Of a DNA stretch of 64,000 nt, positions 7,957 through 63,897 are shown one piece after another. A program made the translations under genes and the position numbers. The notes below the pieces were generated by a model. It worked only from the letters and a program-made list of their open reading frames with translations, did no database searches and was not told the origin of the DNA. Numbering within the stretch: position 1 is the first letter of the stretch; each line of letters starts with the position of its first letter. The DNA comes from an uncultured bacterium (lineage in GTDB: Bacteria; Bacteroidota; Bacteroidia; Chitinophagales; Chitinophagaceae), in contig CAIXLY010000035.1 of NCBI GenBank assembly GCA_903920455.1, positions 1 to 64,000 on the forward strand, given 5' to 3'.

Positions 7957-10900
7957 TTAGCTGCAACCCATACTGTTTCCACAGTTGAGGCATTTGTAAC
8001 AGGTTCCGCTTCTTACTGTGATGTGTCCGCAAGTATTACATGCAGGCGCATCACTTTGCATGCTCTTCATGAATTCTTGAGTACTGTTCTCAGCCCTTAC
8101 TGCCTGCGGTGCCTTTTGTGCTTTGGGTGCAGGAGCAGCGCCCGGGGTTGGTGCAACTACCCGAACATCAGAAAGTTCAGGCTTTGAATCACTTTCAAAG
8201 CGGGGCATTTCAGTAGCATCCCACTCATCCTTTCCTGTATTCATCACTTCTGGCTTGTCCAACACATGAACCAGGTCAGTACGGTTCAAATACTCGTAAG
8301 CAAGGCAGCGGAATACGAAGTCAACGATGGAGGTAGTTGACTTAATATTTGGATGGTCTACCATACCTGAAGGTTCAAACTTGGTAAACACAAACTTCTC
8401 TACAAACTCTTCTAATGGAACACCATATTGAAGACCAACTGAAACTGCAATGGCAAAGCTGTTCATCAAGCTGCGAAGGGTTGATCCCTCTTTGGCAAGA
8501 TCGATAAATATTTCACCAAGGGTTTGGTCGTTATACTCTCCGGTGCGCAAGAAAATTGCTTGTCCGTTGATTTTTGCTTTCTGTGTGAATCCCCTTCTCT
8601 TTGCAGGAAGTTTTTTACGCTCAACAATTCTTGAAAGCTGACGCTTCAATTTTGTATCAGGTGAGGCGTGCATTCTTTTTTGTAATTCGTCCAACAACTC
8701 ATCTACGGTAAGTTTGCTTACATCAAGGAATGGACTATCAGCAGAGACTGCAGCTTCTTCAGCTTTTTCCTCATCAGTAACCTTGCTATCGCTTTTATTG
8801 CTGAGTGGTTGACTAAGCTTTGAACCATCGCGGTAGAGTGCACAAGCTTTCAAACCAAGTTCCCAGCTAAGGAGGTAGCTATCGGCAATTTCAGCGATTG
8901 TTGCCTCGTTCGGAAGGTTGATGGTTTTAGAGATGGCGCCGCTGATGAATGGTTGCGTTGCTCCCATCATGCGGATATGGCCATGTGCATGAATATAGCG
9001 CTCTCCTTTTTTGCCGCATTTGTTTGCGCAATCAAAAACAGGATAGTGTTCTGGTTTAAGGTGTGGAGCACCTTCGACCGTCATGGTGCCACAAACAAAA
9101 TCATTGGCTGCATCAATTTCAGAACCCTTGAAACCAAGTGCCTGAAGCATGTTCCATTCGAAGTTGAAGTACTGCTCAGGTTTGAATCCAAGGCGCTGCA
9201 AACACTCTTCGCCCAATGCATACACATTGAATACAAAACCAACCTCAAATGCAGAAACAACTGCTTCATCAAGTTTTTTGATTTCGCTGGCAATAAATCC
9301 TTTCTCACTCAACACTTCGTGGTTGATGAATGGAGCGCCGGCGAAAGAACCAGAACCAACCGCGTATTTGATGATAGCGTCTTGTTCTGCTTCAGAATAT
9401 TTAAGGTTCGCAAGTGCTTGCGGAACCGATTGGTTGATGATTTTAAAATAACCACCACCAGAAAGTTTCTTGAATTTAACAAGTGCGAAGTCAGGCTCAA
9501 CACCAGTGGTGTCGCAATCCATAACCAATCCAATTGTTCCTGTTGGTGCAATAACGGTTGATTGCGCATTGCGGTAGCCATATTGCTCACCCAGTTCTAC
9601 TGCATCATCCCAGGCCTTGCATGCTGCCTTAAGGAGGTAATCAGGGCAATCTTTCGCCTTGATCCCTTGTGGCTTAATGCTTAGACCAACATAAGCCTGA
9701 TCTGCATCGTAAGCTGCAGCGCGGTGGTTTCTCATCACCTTAAGCATGTGCTCACTATTCTCTTTGTATCTAGGGAATGGACCATGTATTTTAGCAATCT
9801 CAGCAGATGTCTTGTATGAAATACCGGTCATGATTGCTGTAATAGCCCCTGCAATTCCTCTCGCCTCATCACTATCATATGGAATACCACTCACCATCAA
9901 CATGCTACCAAGATTAGCATAACCAAGTCCAAGTGTTCGATAGTCGTAGCTGAGCTGAGCAACTTCTTTACTTGGGAACTGTGCCATTAACACTGAAATC
10001 TCAAGAACGGTCGTCCACAACCTTACTGAATATTCAAAACCTTTTACATCAAATGAGTTATCAGACTCATTGAAGAACTTCCTAAGGTTTGCAGAAGCGA
10101 GGTTACATGCGGTGTTATCAAGGAACATGTACTCACTACAAGGGTTTGAAGCCCTGATTCTTCCACCTTCCGGACAAGTATGCCATTCATTGATGGTTGT
10201 ATCATATTGAGTTCCCGGATCTGCACAACGCCAAGCAGCATAAGCAATTTTATCCCACAATGCTTTTGCAGATATTTTCTTCATCACTCGGCCATCCATT
10301 CTTCCGGTAAGTTCCCAATCCTCACCTGCAGCAAGTTTCTCAAAAAATGCATTCGGTATCCTTACTGAGTTATTGGAGTTTTGTCCACTTACTGTCTTGT
10401 ATGCTTCCCCTTCGTAATCACTTGCATAACCTGCAGCAATAAGCGCAGCTACTTTTTTCTCCTCCTCCACTTTCCAGTCAATAAATTGCTCAATCTCAGG
10501 ATGATCAAGGTCTAGACAAACCATTTTAGCCGCACGGCGGGTTGTTCCACCACTTTTAATGGCTCCTGCTGCACGGTCGCCTATTCTCAAGAAGCTCATC
10601 AATCCAGATGAAGTTCCGCCTCCGCTTAATTTTTCACCTTCGCCACGCATGTTGGAGAAATTTGTTCCAACACCTGAACCATATTTAAAGATCCTGGCCT
10701 CACGAACCCAGAGGTCCATGATACCGCCTTCGTTTACAAGATCATCTTCAACACTGAGAATGAAACAAGCATGTGGCTGAGGACGCTCATAAGCAGAAGT
10801 GGATTTTTTCAACTGACCATCCAATTGGTCTACATAATAGTGTCCTTGTGGCTTGCCCTTGATGCCATAGCTTTCATGCAAACCAGTATTGAACCACTGT

Positions 10901-11319
10901 GGTGAGTTCGGCACACAAGCTTGGTTAAGTATTGAAAAAACCAGCTCCTCATAAAATACAGTAGCATCTTCAGTTGAAGCGAAATAGCCATAACGCTCTC
11001 CCCATACCCTCCAGCAATGAGCCATACGATGGGCAACCTGCTTAGAAGAAGTTTCCCTTCCAAGAGAACCATCAGGCTGTGGCACACCTGCTTTCCTAAA
11101 GTATTTTTGTGCAATAATATCTGTAGCAATCTGGCTCCATTGCTTAGGCACTTCCACATTGGTCATTTCAAATACAACTTCACCACTTGGATTACGGATA
11201 ATCGAAGTGCGATAATCGTATTCGAACATTTCAAACACACTTACCTTACTTGAAGTAAAATGTCTGTCGAATTTTAGTCCCTGACTGTTTGCTGTTGCTT
11301 TAGTTTTGTTTGTGGCCAT
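7957..11319 (-). CDS. nrdJ: Vitamin B12-dependent (class II) ribonucleoside-diphosphate reductase
   Basis: 1120 aa; [55 protein letters not shown], C-terminal CNTCG..[8 protein letters not shown] motif. Confidence 0.95.
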   Translation of the reverse strand: [1120 protein letters not shown]

Positions 11320-60016: not shown

Positions 60017-60853
60017 CTACAGCATATTCAACTGCGTTCTTACCAAAGCCTTTGCAGCAACCCAGGCTTTATGGTAATTGTTAATGCGAATTCGCTCTTC
60101 CAGAATACGCTGGGGCTTAACAGCCCTTATCTTTTTAAAAAGACTCAAATAATATTTATATGCTAAGTATACACCAAATCTTGATTTTAAAGGAAGCCTT
60201 AAGATAGCGTGATAGGCATTATCGAAATCATTAGCAATATCATCTTCGATATTATTTTTCATTTCGTTTGTGAAGGCATTGAAATCAACTCCAGGAAAGT
60301 AAACTCTATTTAACTGCTGATAGTCGGCCTTTACATCCCGAAGAAAATTTACTTTTTGGAAAGCTGCACCAAGTGATTGTGCACCAGGCCTGAGGGTTTC
60401 GTACTGCGATTGATCGCCATCACAAAAAACATAGAGACACATCAGACCAACGACTTCAGCACTTCCGTATATGTATTCTGCATATCCACTTGCGTCATAC
60501 TTTGCTTTATCAAGATCGAATTCCATACTCTTGAAGAAGGCTTCGATAAGCGCAAGATCAATGTGATACTTATTTACAGTACGCTGAAAACTTTGAAGAA
60601 TTGGATTCAAGCTAATTCCTCTTTGTATAGAAGCATAAGTCTCGAGTTTGAAATCAGCCAATAGCTGCGACTTGTCATGATCATGAAATGTATCTACAAT
60701 CTCATCTGCAAATCGGACAAATCCATAGATATCATAAATGGGGCCTTGGATATCGCGGTGCAACAATTTTATTGCACTGCTAAATGAAGTACTGTATCGT
60801 TTTGTTGTAACGCGACTGCATTCGTGGGACACTTCATGAAAAACTGAAATCAT
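60017..60853 (-). CDS. crtB: Phytoene synthase (squalene/phytoene synthase family)
   Basis: YGFVRFADEIVDTFHDHD; AFQKVNFLRDVKADYQQLNRVYFP. Confidence 0.95.
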   Translation of the reverse strand: MISVFHEVSHECSRVTTKRYSTSFSSAIKLLHRDIQGPIYDIYGFVRFADEIVDTFHDHDKSQLLADFKLETYASIQRGISLNPILQSFQRTVNKYHIDLALIEAFFKSMEFDLDKAKYDASGYAEYIYGSAEVVGLMCLYVFCDGDQSQYETLRPGAQSLGAAFQKVNFLRDVKADYQQLNRVYFPGVDFNAFTNEMKNNIEDDIANDFDNAYHAILRLPLKSRFGVYLAYKYYLSLFKKIRAVKPQRILEERIRINNYHKAWVAAKALVRTQLNML

Positions 60854-60895
60854 ATTATTGAAGATAAATAAAAAATAAAAGACAACAAAGACTCC

Positions 60896-62380
60896 CTATG
60901 CCCTATCTGCTGCGTTAGCATTAATTAATTTGGCTACTACTTCTCCGCTAATCAAACTTGGGGGAACACCAGGACCAGGAACAGTTAACTGCCCTGTGTA
61001 ATATAAGTTTTTGACTTTCTTACTCACACAAGACGGTTTTAAAACAGCGGTTTGCATCAACGTGTTTGCCAAACCGTATGCATTTCCTTTGAACGCATTA
61101 TAATCACCAACAAAATCAGTATAAGAATATGCTCTTTTATAAACAATATGCGCTCGTATATCTACTCCAGTTCTTTCAAGCAAACGATCTGCAAGCACAT
61201 TGAAGTAATGTTCTCTCACTTCCTCAGAATCTCCATCAAGACCGGCTGCAATTGGGATGAGAAAAAATAGATTTTCACTTCCTTCAGGAGCTTGCGTTTG
61301 GTCAGTCACAGATGTTGCGCTTAAATAAAATAATGGTTCTTTAGGCCATGCGGGTGATGTGTATATTTCATCGGCATGATTTGCAAAGGGAACATCAAAG
61401 AACAGAGAATGATGTTGAATTCCTGGTATTTTTGTATTTATGCCTACATAATAAATCAATGAACCTGGCGCCATTACTCGCTTATCCCAATAAGAATCAG
61501 AATATGCCCTATATTCTTTTTGAAGGAGTTTTGTCTCAATAAAATGATAATCTGCAGCCCCTACAATTACATCTCCTTGTATTGTTTGTCCATCATGCGT
61601 TGATATGGATCTTGCAGTTCCTCCCTCAACATTGATGGCAGTTACTGTTTGATTAAAATGAAATTTAACTCCCTTTTCAAGGGCAAGCTTATGCATTCCT
61701 TCTACAATTTTATACATGCCTCCACGGGGAAACCATGTTCCCAATTTAATATCTGCATAATTCATCAGGCTATACAGTGCAGGTGTGTTTTCCGGCAAGG
61801 CCCCTAGAAATAAAACTGGAAACTCCATCATCTGACGAAGCTTTGGATGCTTAAAATATTTTCCGATATGCGCTTTGATATTATTAAAAACATCAAGCCT
61901 GAAAAGTCCCGCAATCAATTCCTTATCAAGAAATTCTAACAACGACTGTCCTGGTTTGAATACAAGTTTATGTACACCAACTCTGTACTTGTATTCAGCT
62001 TCCTTCATGAATGCATCGAGTTTATCCCCAGCACCAGGCTCTAACTGGTCAAACATATTTTTTAATTCCTCATAGTTTGCAGGAACATCCATGTGGTCTT
62101 CTTCCCAATAAATTCTATAAGAAGGATCCAGCCTGATTAACTCGTAGTAGTCAGTAACTTGTCGCCCGAAACTTGAGAAGTATCTTTCGAATATATCCGG
62201 CATCCAATACCAGCTCGGTCCCATATCAAATGTAAATCCATCGGTCTTAAAATGCCTAGCTCTGCCACCTGGGTGGTCATGCTTTTCAACAACATGAACG
62301 TCCCATCCCATTGAAGACAAGAAAGTGGCTGCGGAGAGACCTGCAAATCCGCTTCCGATAATTACGGCTTTTTTTGACAC
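60896..62380 (-). CDS. crtI: Phytoene desaturase
   Basis: AVIIGSGFAGLSAATFLSSMGWDVHVVEKHDHPGGRA; C-terminal LYYTGQLTVPGPGVPPSLISGEVVA. Confidence 0.95.
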   Translation of the reverse strand: MSKKAVIIGSGFAGLSAATFLSSMGWDVHVVEKHDHPGGRARHFKTDGFTFDMGPSWYWMPDIFERYFSSFGRQVTDYYELIRLDPSYRIYWEEDHMDVPANYEELKNMFDQLEPGAGDKLDAFMKEAEYKYRVGVHKLVFKPGQSLLEFLDKELIAGLFRLDVFNNIKAHIGKYFKHPKLRQMMEFPVLFLGALPENTPALYSLMNYADIKLGTWFPRGGMYKIVEGMHKLALEKGVKFHFNQTVTAINVEGGTARSISTHDGQTIQGDVIVGAADYHFIETKLLQKEYRAYSDSYWDKRVMAPGSLIYYVGINTKIPGIQHHSLFFDVPFANHADEIYTSPAWPKEPLFYLSATSVTDQTQAPEGSENLFFLIPIAAGLDGDSEEVREHYFNVLADRLLERTGVDIRAHIVYKRAYSYTDFVGDYNAFKGNAYGLANTLMQTAVLKPSCVSKKVKNLYYTGQLTVPGPGVPPSLISGEVVAKLINANAADRA

Positions 62381-62394
62381 AGTGGAAAGTTAAT

Positions 62395-62895
62395 CTAAAA
62401 CTTGTTGATTTGGTTTTTCAGCAACCTTCTCGCAAAGTGAATTCGACTCTTGATTGTTCCAAGAGGTTCATTCAACATGTCTGCAATTTCATGGTATTTG
62501 TAGCCTTCGAAGTATAATACAAAAGGCTGCTTGAATATAGTGGGCAACTGGTAGATTGCTTGGTTGATGTCCTTCATCCTCATATTCGTTTCTGCTGTGT
62601 TTGGAACAGCAGATTGATTATGGTCTAGGAGAAACTCATTTGGGCTGTTATCGAATATCGTGTTCTGCTTTGACTTCCGACGATAGTTATTGATGAATAT
62701 ATTGCGCATGATGGTATACAACCATGCTTTGATATTAGTGCCTACACTGTATTTTTCTTGATTGGATAATGCCCTAAACATCGTTTCCTGCAAAAGGTCT
62801 TTAGCAGACTCTTGATCTTTAGTCAATGTCACCGCAAAAGGCCTTAGGTATTCGGAGTTTTGGAGGAGCAACTGGTTGAATTCTTGTGTAGACAT
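62395..62895 (-). CDS. ECF-type RNA polymerase sigma factor
   Basis: DLLQETMFRALSN; IKAWLYTIMRNIFINNYRR; HEIADMLNEPLGTIKSRIHFARRLLK; ATG 62895 (MSTQEFNQ) preferred because the ORF start at 62934 lies in the operator region. Confidence 0.93.
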   Translation of the reverse strand: MSTQEFNQLLLQNSEYLRPFAVTLTKDQESAKDLLQETMFRALSNQEKYSVGTNIKAWLYTIMRNIFINNYRRKSKQNTIFDNSPNEFLLDHNQSAVPNTAETNMRMKDINQAIYQLPTIFKQPFVLYFEGYKYHEIADMLNEPLGTIKSRIHFARRLLKNQINKF

Positions 62896-62901
62896 AGAAT
62901 T

Positions 62902-62934
62902 TTGTTTAAGTGTTGATAGATCAAATTTAAACAA
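62902..62934. promoter_or_regulatory. Putative operator site 1: TTGTTTAA-N17-TTAAACAA
   Basis: Perfect 8-bp inverted repeat (10-bp arms TTTTGTTTAA/TTAAACAAAA), spacer 17 bp. Confidence 0.7.
62922..62929 (-). promoter_or_regulatory. Putative Bacteroidota -7 element TAAATTTG (TANNTTTG) for the ECF sigma gene; candidate -33 TTG at 62952..62954
   Basis: Reverse complement of caaattta; TTG located 22 bp upstream (slightly longer than usual spacing). Confidence 0.4.
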
Positions 62935-62956
62935 AAATGGAATAGGCCGACCAAAT

Positions 62957-62989
62957 TTGTTTAATATTTTATATATTATACTTAAACAA
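62957..62989. promoter_or_regulatory. Putative operator site 2: TTGTTTAA-N17-TTAAACAA
   Basis: Same arms and same 17-bp spacer, centre-to-centre distance 55 bp from site 1. Confidence 0.7.
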
Positions 62990-63015
62990 AATACAATTCA
63001 ATGAAAACCAATCGA

Positions 63016-63897
63016 TTAGGCTAATTCAGTGATGAATTCGGTAACTTCTTGAAGGGACCGCTTAAAATGAATCTGTGAGGGGAGTTTTTTCTCGTAATTA
63101 GCAGCGAGTCTGCCTGAGATGATGAGGGGGACTGTTCCAAAGCGGTTGAGCGACTGATGGATAAACTTATCAAAATTAAAAACGCTGGATACTGAGGTGA
63201 GGTGGGTATATATGAAGTCGGGCTTCTTATGTTTTAGAACATATTCAACATCTTCCAAAGGCACATTGGCTCCAAGGTAGAGCACATAAAGTCCCCTGCT
63301 CTTTAATAAATATTGGATAAAGAGGAGGCCAAGTTCATGGTATTCTCCTTCTGGAAGGAATAAAAGGCCGGTTTTTTTCAGTTGAAACATCGGAGTTACA
63401 GCTTCAGTTCCAACGATTAATTTCTGTCTGATGATATTTGAAACCAGGTGTTCCTGGGCAGGATTGATATGGCCCGTAATCCAAAGCACTCCAATTCTTT
63501 CCATGAAAGGAAAGATAATTTGGTGAATGGTCTTTTCGATGCCCTTTGCATTGATATGCTCCTCAAGACTATTCTCAAATCCCTCTAGATCCATGTCTAT
63601 CATTGACTGAATCAAGGAGTTTACAATCCGTTCTTGTTGGGCTTGTATATTATTGATTGAAAGAATCTTAGAGGTGATATCATCGTTCGACATCTTATCA
63701 ATGTGCGAAATCTTGAATCCATATTTATTAAGAAGAGAGATATTCAGAATCTTTTTCAGTTCCTCATTATTGTAATACCGGATGTTGGTATCCGTCCTTT
63801 GTGGCTTTAAAAACCCATAACGCTGCTCCCAAATTCGGATGGTGTGGGCTTTTATCCCTGTTAAATTCTGCAAATCTTTAATGGTAAATGCGTTCAT
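63016..63897 (-). CDS. MerR-family regulator with C-terminal cobalamin-binding domain (CarH/LitR-type)
   Basis: TIKDLQNLTGIKAHTIRIWEQRYGFLKPQRT (MerR HTH); W-ITGHINPAQ-EH (Wx9EH) and GEYHELG in the B12-binding region. Confidence 0.92.
   Translation of the reverse strand: MNAFTIKDLQNLTGIKAHTIRIWEQRYGFLKPQRTDTNIRYYNNEELKKILNISLLNKYGFKISHIDKMSNDDITSKILSINNIQAQQERIVNSLIQSMIDMDLEGFENSLEEHINAKGIEKTIHQIIFPFMERIGVLWITGHINPAQEHLVSNIIRQKLIVGTEAVTPMFQLKKTGLLFLPEGEYHELGLLFIQYLLKSRGLYVLYLGANVPLEDVEYVLKHKKPDFIYTHLTSVSSVFNFDKFIHQSLNRFGTVPLIISGRLAANYEKKLPSQIHFKRSLQEVTEFITELA

Follow-up and report, generated by a model that had tools for sequence, protein, structure and literature searches.

We analyzed a 64,000-nucleotide stretch of DNA (the window; contig CAIXLY010000035.1) from a freshwater Bacteroidota bacterium of the family Chitinophagaceae, whose genome comprises 2.31 Mb in 106 contigs, and focused on a four-gene cluster on its minus strand (60017-63897) that encodes a regulator resembling the B12-dependent photoreceptor CarH, an extracytoplasmic function (ECF) sigma factor and the carotenoid enzymes CrtI and CrtB. 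Taken together, the evidence makes it likely that the 293-aa regulator is an adenosylcobalamin (AdoCbl)-dependent dark repressor of the sigma-crtI-crtB operon that is released by light. The protein is a CarH as judged by its sequence signature and predicted fold, and two inverted repeats between carH and the sigma gene, which went unnoticed in the preliminary description of this DNA and are the strongest new evidence for this interpretation, are from their sequence its likely operator.

The preliminary description of this DNA, made from the letters alone, had claimed four co-directional genes, and all four open reading frames were found on the minus strand with identities that agree with Pfam and NCBIfam: the carH-like gene (63016-63897), the sigma gene (62395-62895; 166 aa, Pfam Sigma70_r2 and Sigma70_r4_2), crtI (60896-62380; 494 aa) and crtB (60017-60853; 278 aa). 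CrtI is a phytoene desaturase of the CrtID type (Pfam Amino_oxidase; NCBIfam NF058655, 731 bits against a cut-off of 640), while CrtB belongs to the squalene/phytoene synthase family (Pfam SQS_PSY, 133.6 bits) and is assigned as phytoene synthase also by its place after crtI, as the last gene of the operon. Upstream, the sigma reading frame is open as far as the TTG at 62934 that had been listed as its start, but the gene most likely begins at the ATG at 62895, because that start is common to the relatives. Since only 14 bp separate sigma from crtI and 42 bp separate crtI from crtB, the three genes look like a single operon. A synteny survey, suggested in the preliminary description, revealed that the order carH, repeats, sigma, crtI, crtB recurs in most of the best 80 loci in other GTDB genomes, and the four-gene order is therefore not due to chance. 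The full arrangement was seen in Chitinophagaceae (Sediminibacterium, Ferruginibacter, Hydrotalea and Lacibacter) and also in Algoriphagus and Pontibacter, such that the form of the locus is, at the level of sequence, conserved in Chitinophagaceae and several Cytophagales.

The regulator has the domain layout of a cobalamin-dependent MerR protein, with a MerR DNA-binding domain (residues ~1-70; Pfam MerR_1, 55 bits), a four-helix B12-binding_2 cap (~84-165; 41 bits, both matches over their cut-offs) that carries W139, E149 and H150, and a Rossmann B12-binding domain that carries H187 and G209-P213. Its closest solved relative by sequence is Thermus CarH (phmmer E 5e-23 to 6e-23; 3whp, 5c8d), and the two motifs that the preliminary description had picked out as typical of CarH, the W-x9-EH motif at residues 139-150 (WITGHINPAQEH) and the lower-axial His in GEYHELG (E-x-H-x-x-G at residues 185-190, EYHELG), are borne out by alignment, with W139, E149, H150 and H187 matching W131, E141, H142 and H177 of the Thermus protein. 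Equivalence of the Trp, Glu and His positions, which had been named there as the point on which the assignment could fail, was found both in the alignment and in the comparison of folds, and W139, E149, H150, E185, H187, G136, G209 and P213 are invariant in 36 relatives. The regulator also has in full the published light-response signature of cobalamin-domain MerR proteins (GxxW, EH, GxxH and GxxxP; PMC11796333), as G136xxW139, E149H150, G184xxH187 and G209xxxP213. An AlphaFold2 model (predicted local distance difference test score, pLDDT, 90.4) gave CarH structures 5c8e and 5c8d as its top Protein Data Bank (PDB) matches in Foldseek, with a target TM-score (TMt) of ~0.80 for the cobalamin domain alone. 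Compared with Thermus thermophilus CarH (TtCarH/TtLitR), the regulator thus shares domain order, cofactor-contacting residues, an equivalent of R149 (R157) and fold, as well as carotenoid targets and an 11-bp recognition unit of the TnnACA type, but differs in having Ile for His132, Asn for D201 and only ~22% identity in the structural alignment, in its operator of spaced inverted pairs where Thermus has three tandem direct repeats, and in the ECF sigma gene that heads its target operon.

The likely operator consists of two perfect 31-bp dyads, TGTTTAA-N17-TTAAACA, at 62958-62988 (distal) and 62903-62933 (proximal), 55 bp apart and between carH and sigma. A whole-genome pattern search showed them to be the sole exact matches in the 2.31-Mb genome, with 0 matches to a reversed control. 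Within 160 bp before the sigma start, a dyad with ≤1 mismatch was present in 33 of 34 related sigma-bearing loci where Markov resampling led us to expect 0.07, and with ≤2 mismatches allowed the proximal dyad was found in 32 and the distal in 29 of these loci, 55-57 bp apart, the distal one roughly 93 bp ahead of the sigma ATG in the relatives. The arms fit the 11-bp CarH recognition unit nAnnTnnACAn (PMC8156234), although only 70 of 107 arms have the A that stands three bases ahead of the T; each dyad accordingly holds two CarH-type units that are inverted, spaced and outward facing. Characterized CarH operators are tandem direct repeats (PMC9304148); such an operator was rejected here, as TnnACA-N5-TnnACA is absent from the locus and was seen in 4 of 34 loci overall, with no triples. 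A reading of the repeats as a carH terminator was likewise ruled out, because the dyads remain with sigma in loci where carH points the other way or lies on a different contig.

The repeats bracket a putative promoter. In Bacteroidota the promoter consensus of the primary sigma factor is TTTG-N21/22-TAnnTTTG, and a promoter of this type is present in the aligned loci, with its -33 element just past the distal dyad and its -7 element sharing bases with the left arm of the proximal dyad. In the window these correspond to TTTG at 62952-62955 (minus strand), 2 bp past the distal repeat and favored in a logo of 28 loci, and to TAAATTTG at 62922-62929 (minus strand), in which TAAnTT is nearly invariant across the 28 loci. 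Spacing between repeats varied by lineage, being 44 bp in Algoriphagus (L175, L178 and L182), 55-57 bp in most Chitinophagaceae and 36 bp in Flavisolibacter and G107; L164 was also among the loci compared. Exact inverted repeats also occurred away from carH and the crt genes in some relatives (G098 at C12:311939 and C12:313912, and single sites in G009, G046, G085 and G089), where they are possibly further regulon members or matches by chance.

Presence of the repeats tracks presence of carH. Where carH is linked to sigma and crtI, a dyad precedes sigma in 33 of 35 loci, including that of G040 in which carH is divergent and the dyads remain before sigma, and where carH is unlinked a dyad still precedes sigma (5/5). 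Clusters that have no sigma gene and run from carH to crtI carry a dyad before crtI in 8 of 13 cases and before carH in two more (G083 and G006). Genomes with crtI but no carH had no dyad (0/13), and these include two that keep the sigma gene and one that has only a 38% paralogue. Overall, dyads were present in 46 of 53 cases with carH versus 0 of 13 without (Fisher p 4e-9), a comparison of analyst-chosen loci from the same bacterial family and from related genomes, calculated without phylogenetic correction.

This choice of related loci and the uncorrected test weigh against our interpretation, and so does the fact that, of the 12 genomes in which nothing matched carH, 10 have no recognizable adjacent sigma gene either. 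Features of the regulator itself stand on the same side, namely a Pfam B12-binding score of 27.4 bits that falls below the cut-off of 32.1, a score of 109.5 bits against a cut-off of 400 for the NCBIfam CarH equivalog NF052513, which makes the protein related but outside that narrow equivalog, and a degenerate SxT...GG half of the classic B12 motif; of this second half (x41 SxT/V x22-27 GG), THLT and SG262R stand at the matching places, so that it is partly kept. Ile at the His132 position is a further such point, as His is found there in only 2 of 88 motif-bearing orthologues. His132 provides the light-state bis-His upper ligand in Thermus CarH, and it is not universal in the family. In the Chloracidobacterium protein CtMerR (8jbs), an AdoCbl-signature MerR photoreceptor from another phylum that likewise has no His132 equivalent, Arg occupies the position and the protein is still light-responsive (PMC11796333), so by analogy a missing His132 does not exclude a light response. 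The change H132A in TtCarH hinders disassembly (PMC10442372).

From these features we infer AdoCbl binding, a light response, the protein's presence on the repeats, repression, and targets of the sigma factor. In the dark, AdoCbl would be held between the helical cap (W139, E149 and H150) and the Rossmann domain with H187 as lower ligand, and the AdoCbl-bound regulator would oligomerize, with its MerR domains occupying the four TnnACA half-sites in the two repeats and masking the -33/-7 promoter. Green or blue light would then break the Co-C bond, upon which the oligomer would dissociate and come off the DNA, allowing sigma, CrtI and CrtB to be produced. As there is no anti-sigma gene adjoining the sigma gene in the neighborhood of the cluster, control of the sigma factor by synthesis is expected; it would be limited by its own production and then switch on further light-response genes. 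In the regions before crtZ-crtY and before the rhodopsin gene, no common promoter motif was established for such a regulon.

The cofactor and the physiological setting that this scheme presupposes are both represented in the genome. It encodes an ATP:cob(I)alamin adenosyltransferase (210 bits), a cobalamin riboswitch that precedes a gene for a BtuB-like receptor, two strong B12-binding proteins, and a class II AdoCbl-dependent ribonucleotide reductase at 7957-11319 of the window (minus strand; PF08471 and PF02867), and on this gene content it can presumably import, adenosylate and use B12. A crtZ-like gene and crtY, which encodes lycopene cyclase, form a separate operon on contig C55 and are near crtB in most relatives. 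In L183 a single TGTTTAACTTTA half-site, ~17 bp upstream of the likely start of crtZ, resembles the operator arm plus -7 box before sigma in relatives; a similar half-site was seen in L186 and not in most others. A rhodopsin gene followed by a gene for a Brp/Blh beta-carotene dioxygenase is present on contig C58 (L215 2473-4257), and because Blh adjoins rhodopsin, beta-carotene probably feeds retinal; as the genome encodes both, the organism probably lives in light.

The capacity for B12 uptake and use, together with the missing His132, would equally suit a regulator that senses the cellular level of AdoCbl and not light, such that enough AdoCbl represses the carotenoid genes and light has no physiological role. 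We consider this unlikely, since the protein family retains the residues that mark light-responsive cobalamin domains, its target pathway serves photoprotection, rhodopsin and Blh point to a probably lit habitat, and a photolyase gene lies beside carH in one related locus (L174), where it is divergent from carH and no dyad is present.

The position of the repeats bears on how a light-responsive regulator would act. The preliminary description had likened the cluster to LitR/LitS of Streptomyces coelicolor, and the likeness stands for gene order, in that a B12-dependent MerR regulator lies by an ECF sigma gene and carotenoid genes, but probably not for the mode of action. LitR is described as an activator of the litS promoter (PMC12705666), with sigma-LitS driving crtE, whereas here, in another phylum, the sites overlap a primary-sigma promoter and crtI and crtB stand directly behind the sigma gene. 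It seems improbable to us that the regulator, activated by light, induces transcription from the sigma promoter and that the sigma factor in turn drives the carotenoid genes, since the proximal repeat shares bases with the -7 box and probably also with the transcription start while the distal repeat abuts the -33 element, which is a repressor arrangement, crtI is close enough to sigma to be probably in the same operon, and in clusters that have no sigma gene the repeats stand straight before crtI. This position of the putative operators, overlapping and flanking the promoter, favors dark repression over activation in the manner of LitR.

The repeats sit immediately ahead of the sigma gene, and a TGTTTAACTTTR half-site is found before crtZ too, in this genome and in one relative, both of which would fit binding by another regulator, or a promoter recognized by the ECF sigma factor itself, with carH acting elsewhere. 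We give this little credence, as the repeats persist before crtI or carH in the sigma-less clusters, the genomes with sigma but no carH have none, the arms match the CarH recognition unit, and a dyad is atypical of ECF promoters. Least probable is a B12-independent regulator like CarA that keeps the cobalamin fold as a mere scaffold, for although CarA too retains much of the B12 motif and the motif is partly degenerate in the 293-aa protein, CarA is without the Trp of Wx9EH (PMC9304148) that is invariant in the relatives here, and neither a CarS nor a CarR gene was seen adjoining the cluster.

Elsewhere among the characterized systems, myxobacterial CarH/CarA resembles our dark-repression reading in having TnnACA units at a carotenoid promoter (the Pcrt operator of ~55 bp), and inverted repeats were once proposed for CarA; footprints there favor tandem direct repeats (PMC9304148), however, and CarQ sigma works with the anti-sigma factor CarR, of which no counterpart adjoins the cluster here. 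The gene set itself was known earlier in Bacteroidota from the merR-rpoE-crt clusters of Echinicola (PMC8683446), where the regulator is listed, in the parts of that report available to us, without identification as CarH, operator or mechanism. Light-induced carotenoids have been described in Chryseobacterium lacus, for which the regulator is not known (PMC7064467), and our literature search, whose coverage left out most subscription journals, found no publication on CarH or a CarH operator in Bacteroidota. What is new here is that a protein which is by signature and predicted fold a CarH has an operator of different topology, does not have His132 and has an ECF sigma factor as its probable first target. 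A putative photoreceptor, its probable DNA sites and its target operon are named together. If true, one half-site serves CarH in both inverted and direct repeats and an ECF sigma factor passes on the light signal, and the operator pair would offer a compact green-light switch for Bacteroidota genetics.

Evenly balanced in our estimation is the broader proposal of a widespread B12 light circuit in Bacteroidota, in which a CarH without His132 would act on two spaced inverted repeats that bracket -33/-7 and close the promoter, as a dimer per repeat or as a bridging tetramer, with the ECF sigma factor as primary target relaying light beyond carotenoids. Bacteroidales-labelled loci hold the carH-repeat-sigma module without carotenoid genes. 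Among the loci labelled Bacteroidales or Bacteroidetes that have carH and sigma with no crtI nearby, L167, L168, L169, L176 and L177 carry the repeats, while L170 and L174 do not.

In the tree, the clade of regulators directly before crtI and a signal-peptidase-side clade are separate from the orthologues of the window protein. A clade of CarH-like paralogues (L047-L054, including L047, L049 and L052) has ~35-41% identity, an ExHExP-type motif replacing ExHxxG and no inverted repeats, and it adjoins signal peptidase, deaminase and sigma-54 response regulator genes. A photolyase gene beside these paralogues was sought in three loci and not found, signal peptidase and deaminase genes being there instead. 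Around the cluster itself, which has no Rfam match within it, the gene upstream of carH reads from its sequence as a PHP-type hydrolase, and the gene downstream of crtB is convergent and appears hydrolase-like. Just beyond the window, at ~64748-67567 on contig C35 (L034 4748-7567), a single 939-aa open reading frame combines a truncated Wzc-type tyrosine kinase with most of a GDP-L-fucose synthase, and it is either a genuine fusion by deletion or an assembly join.

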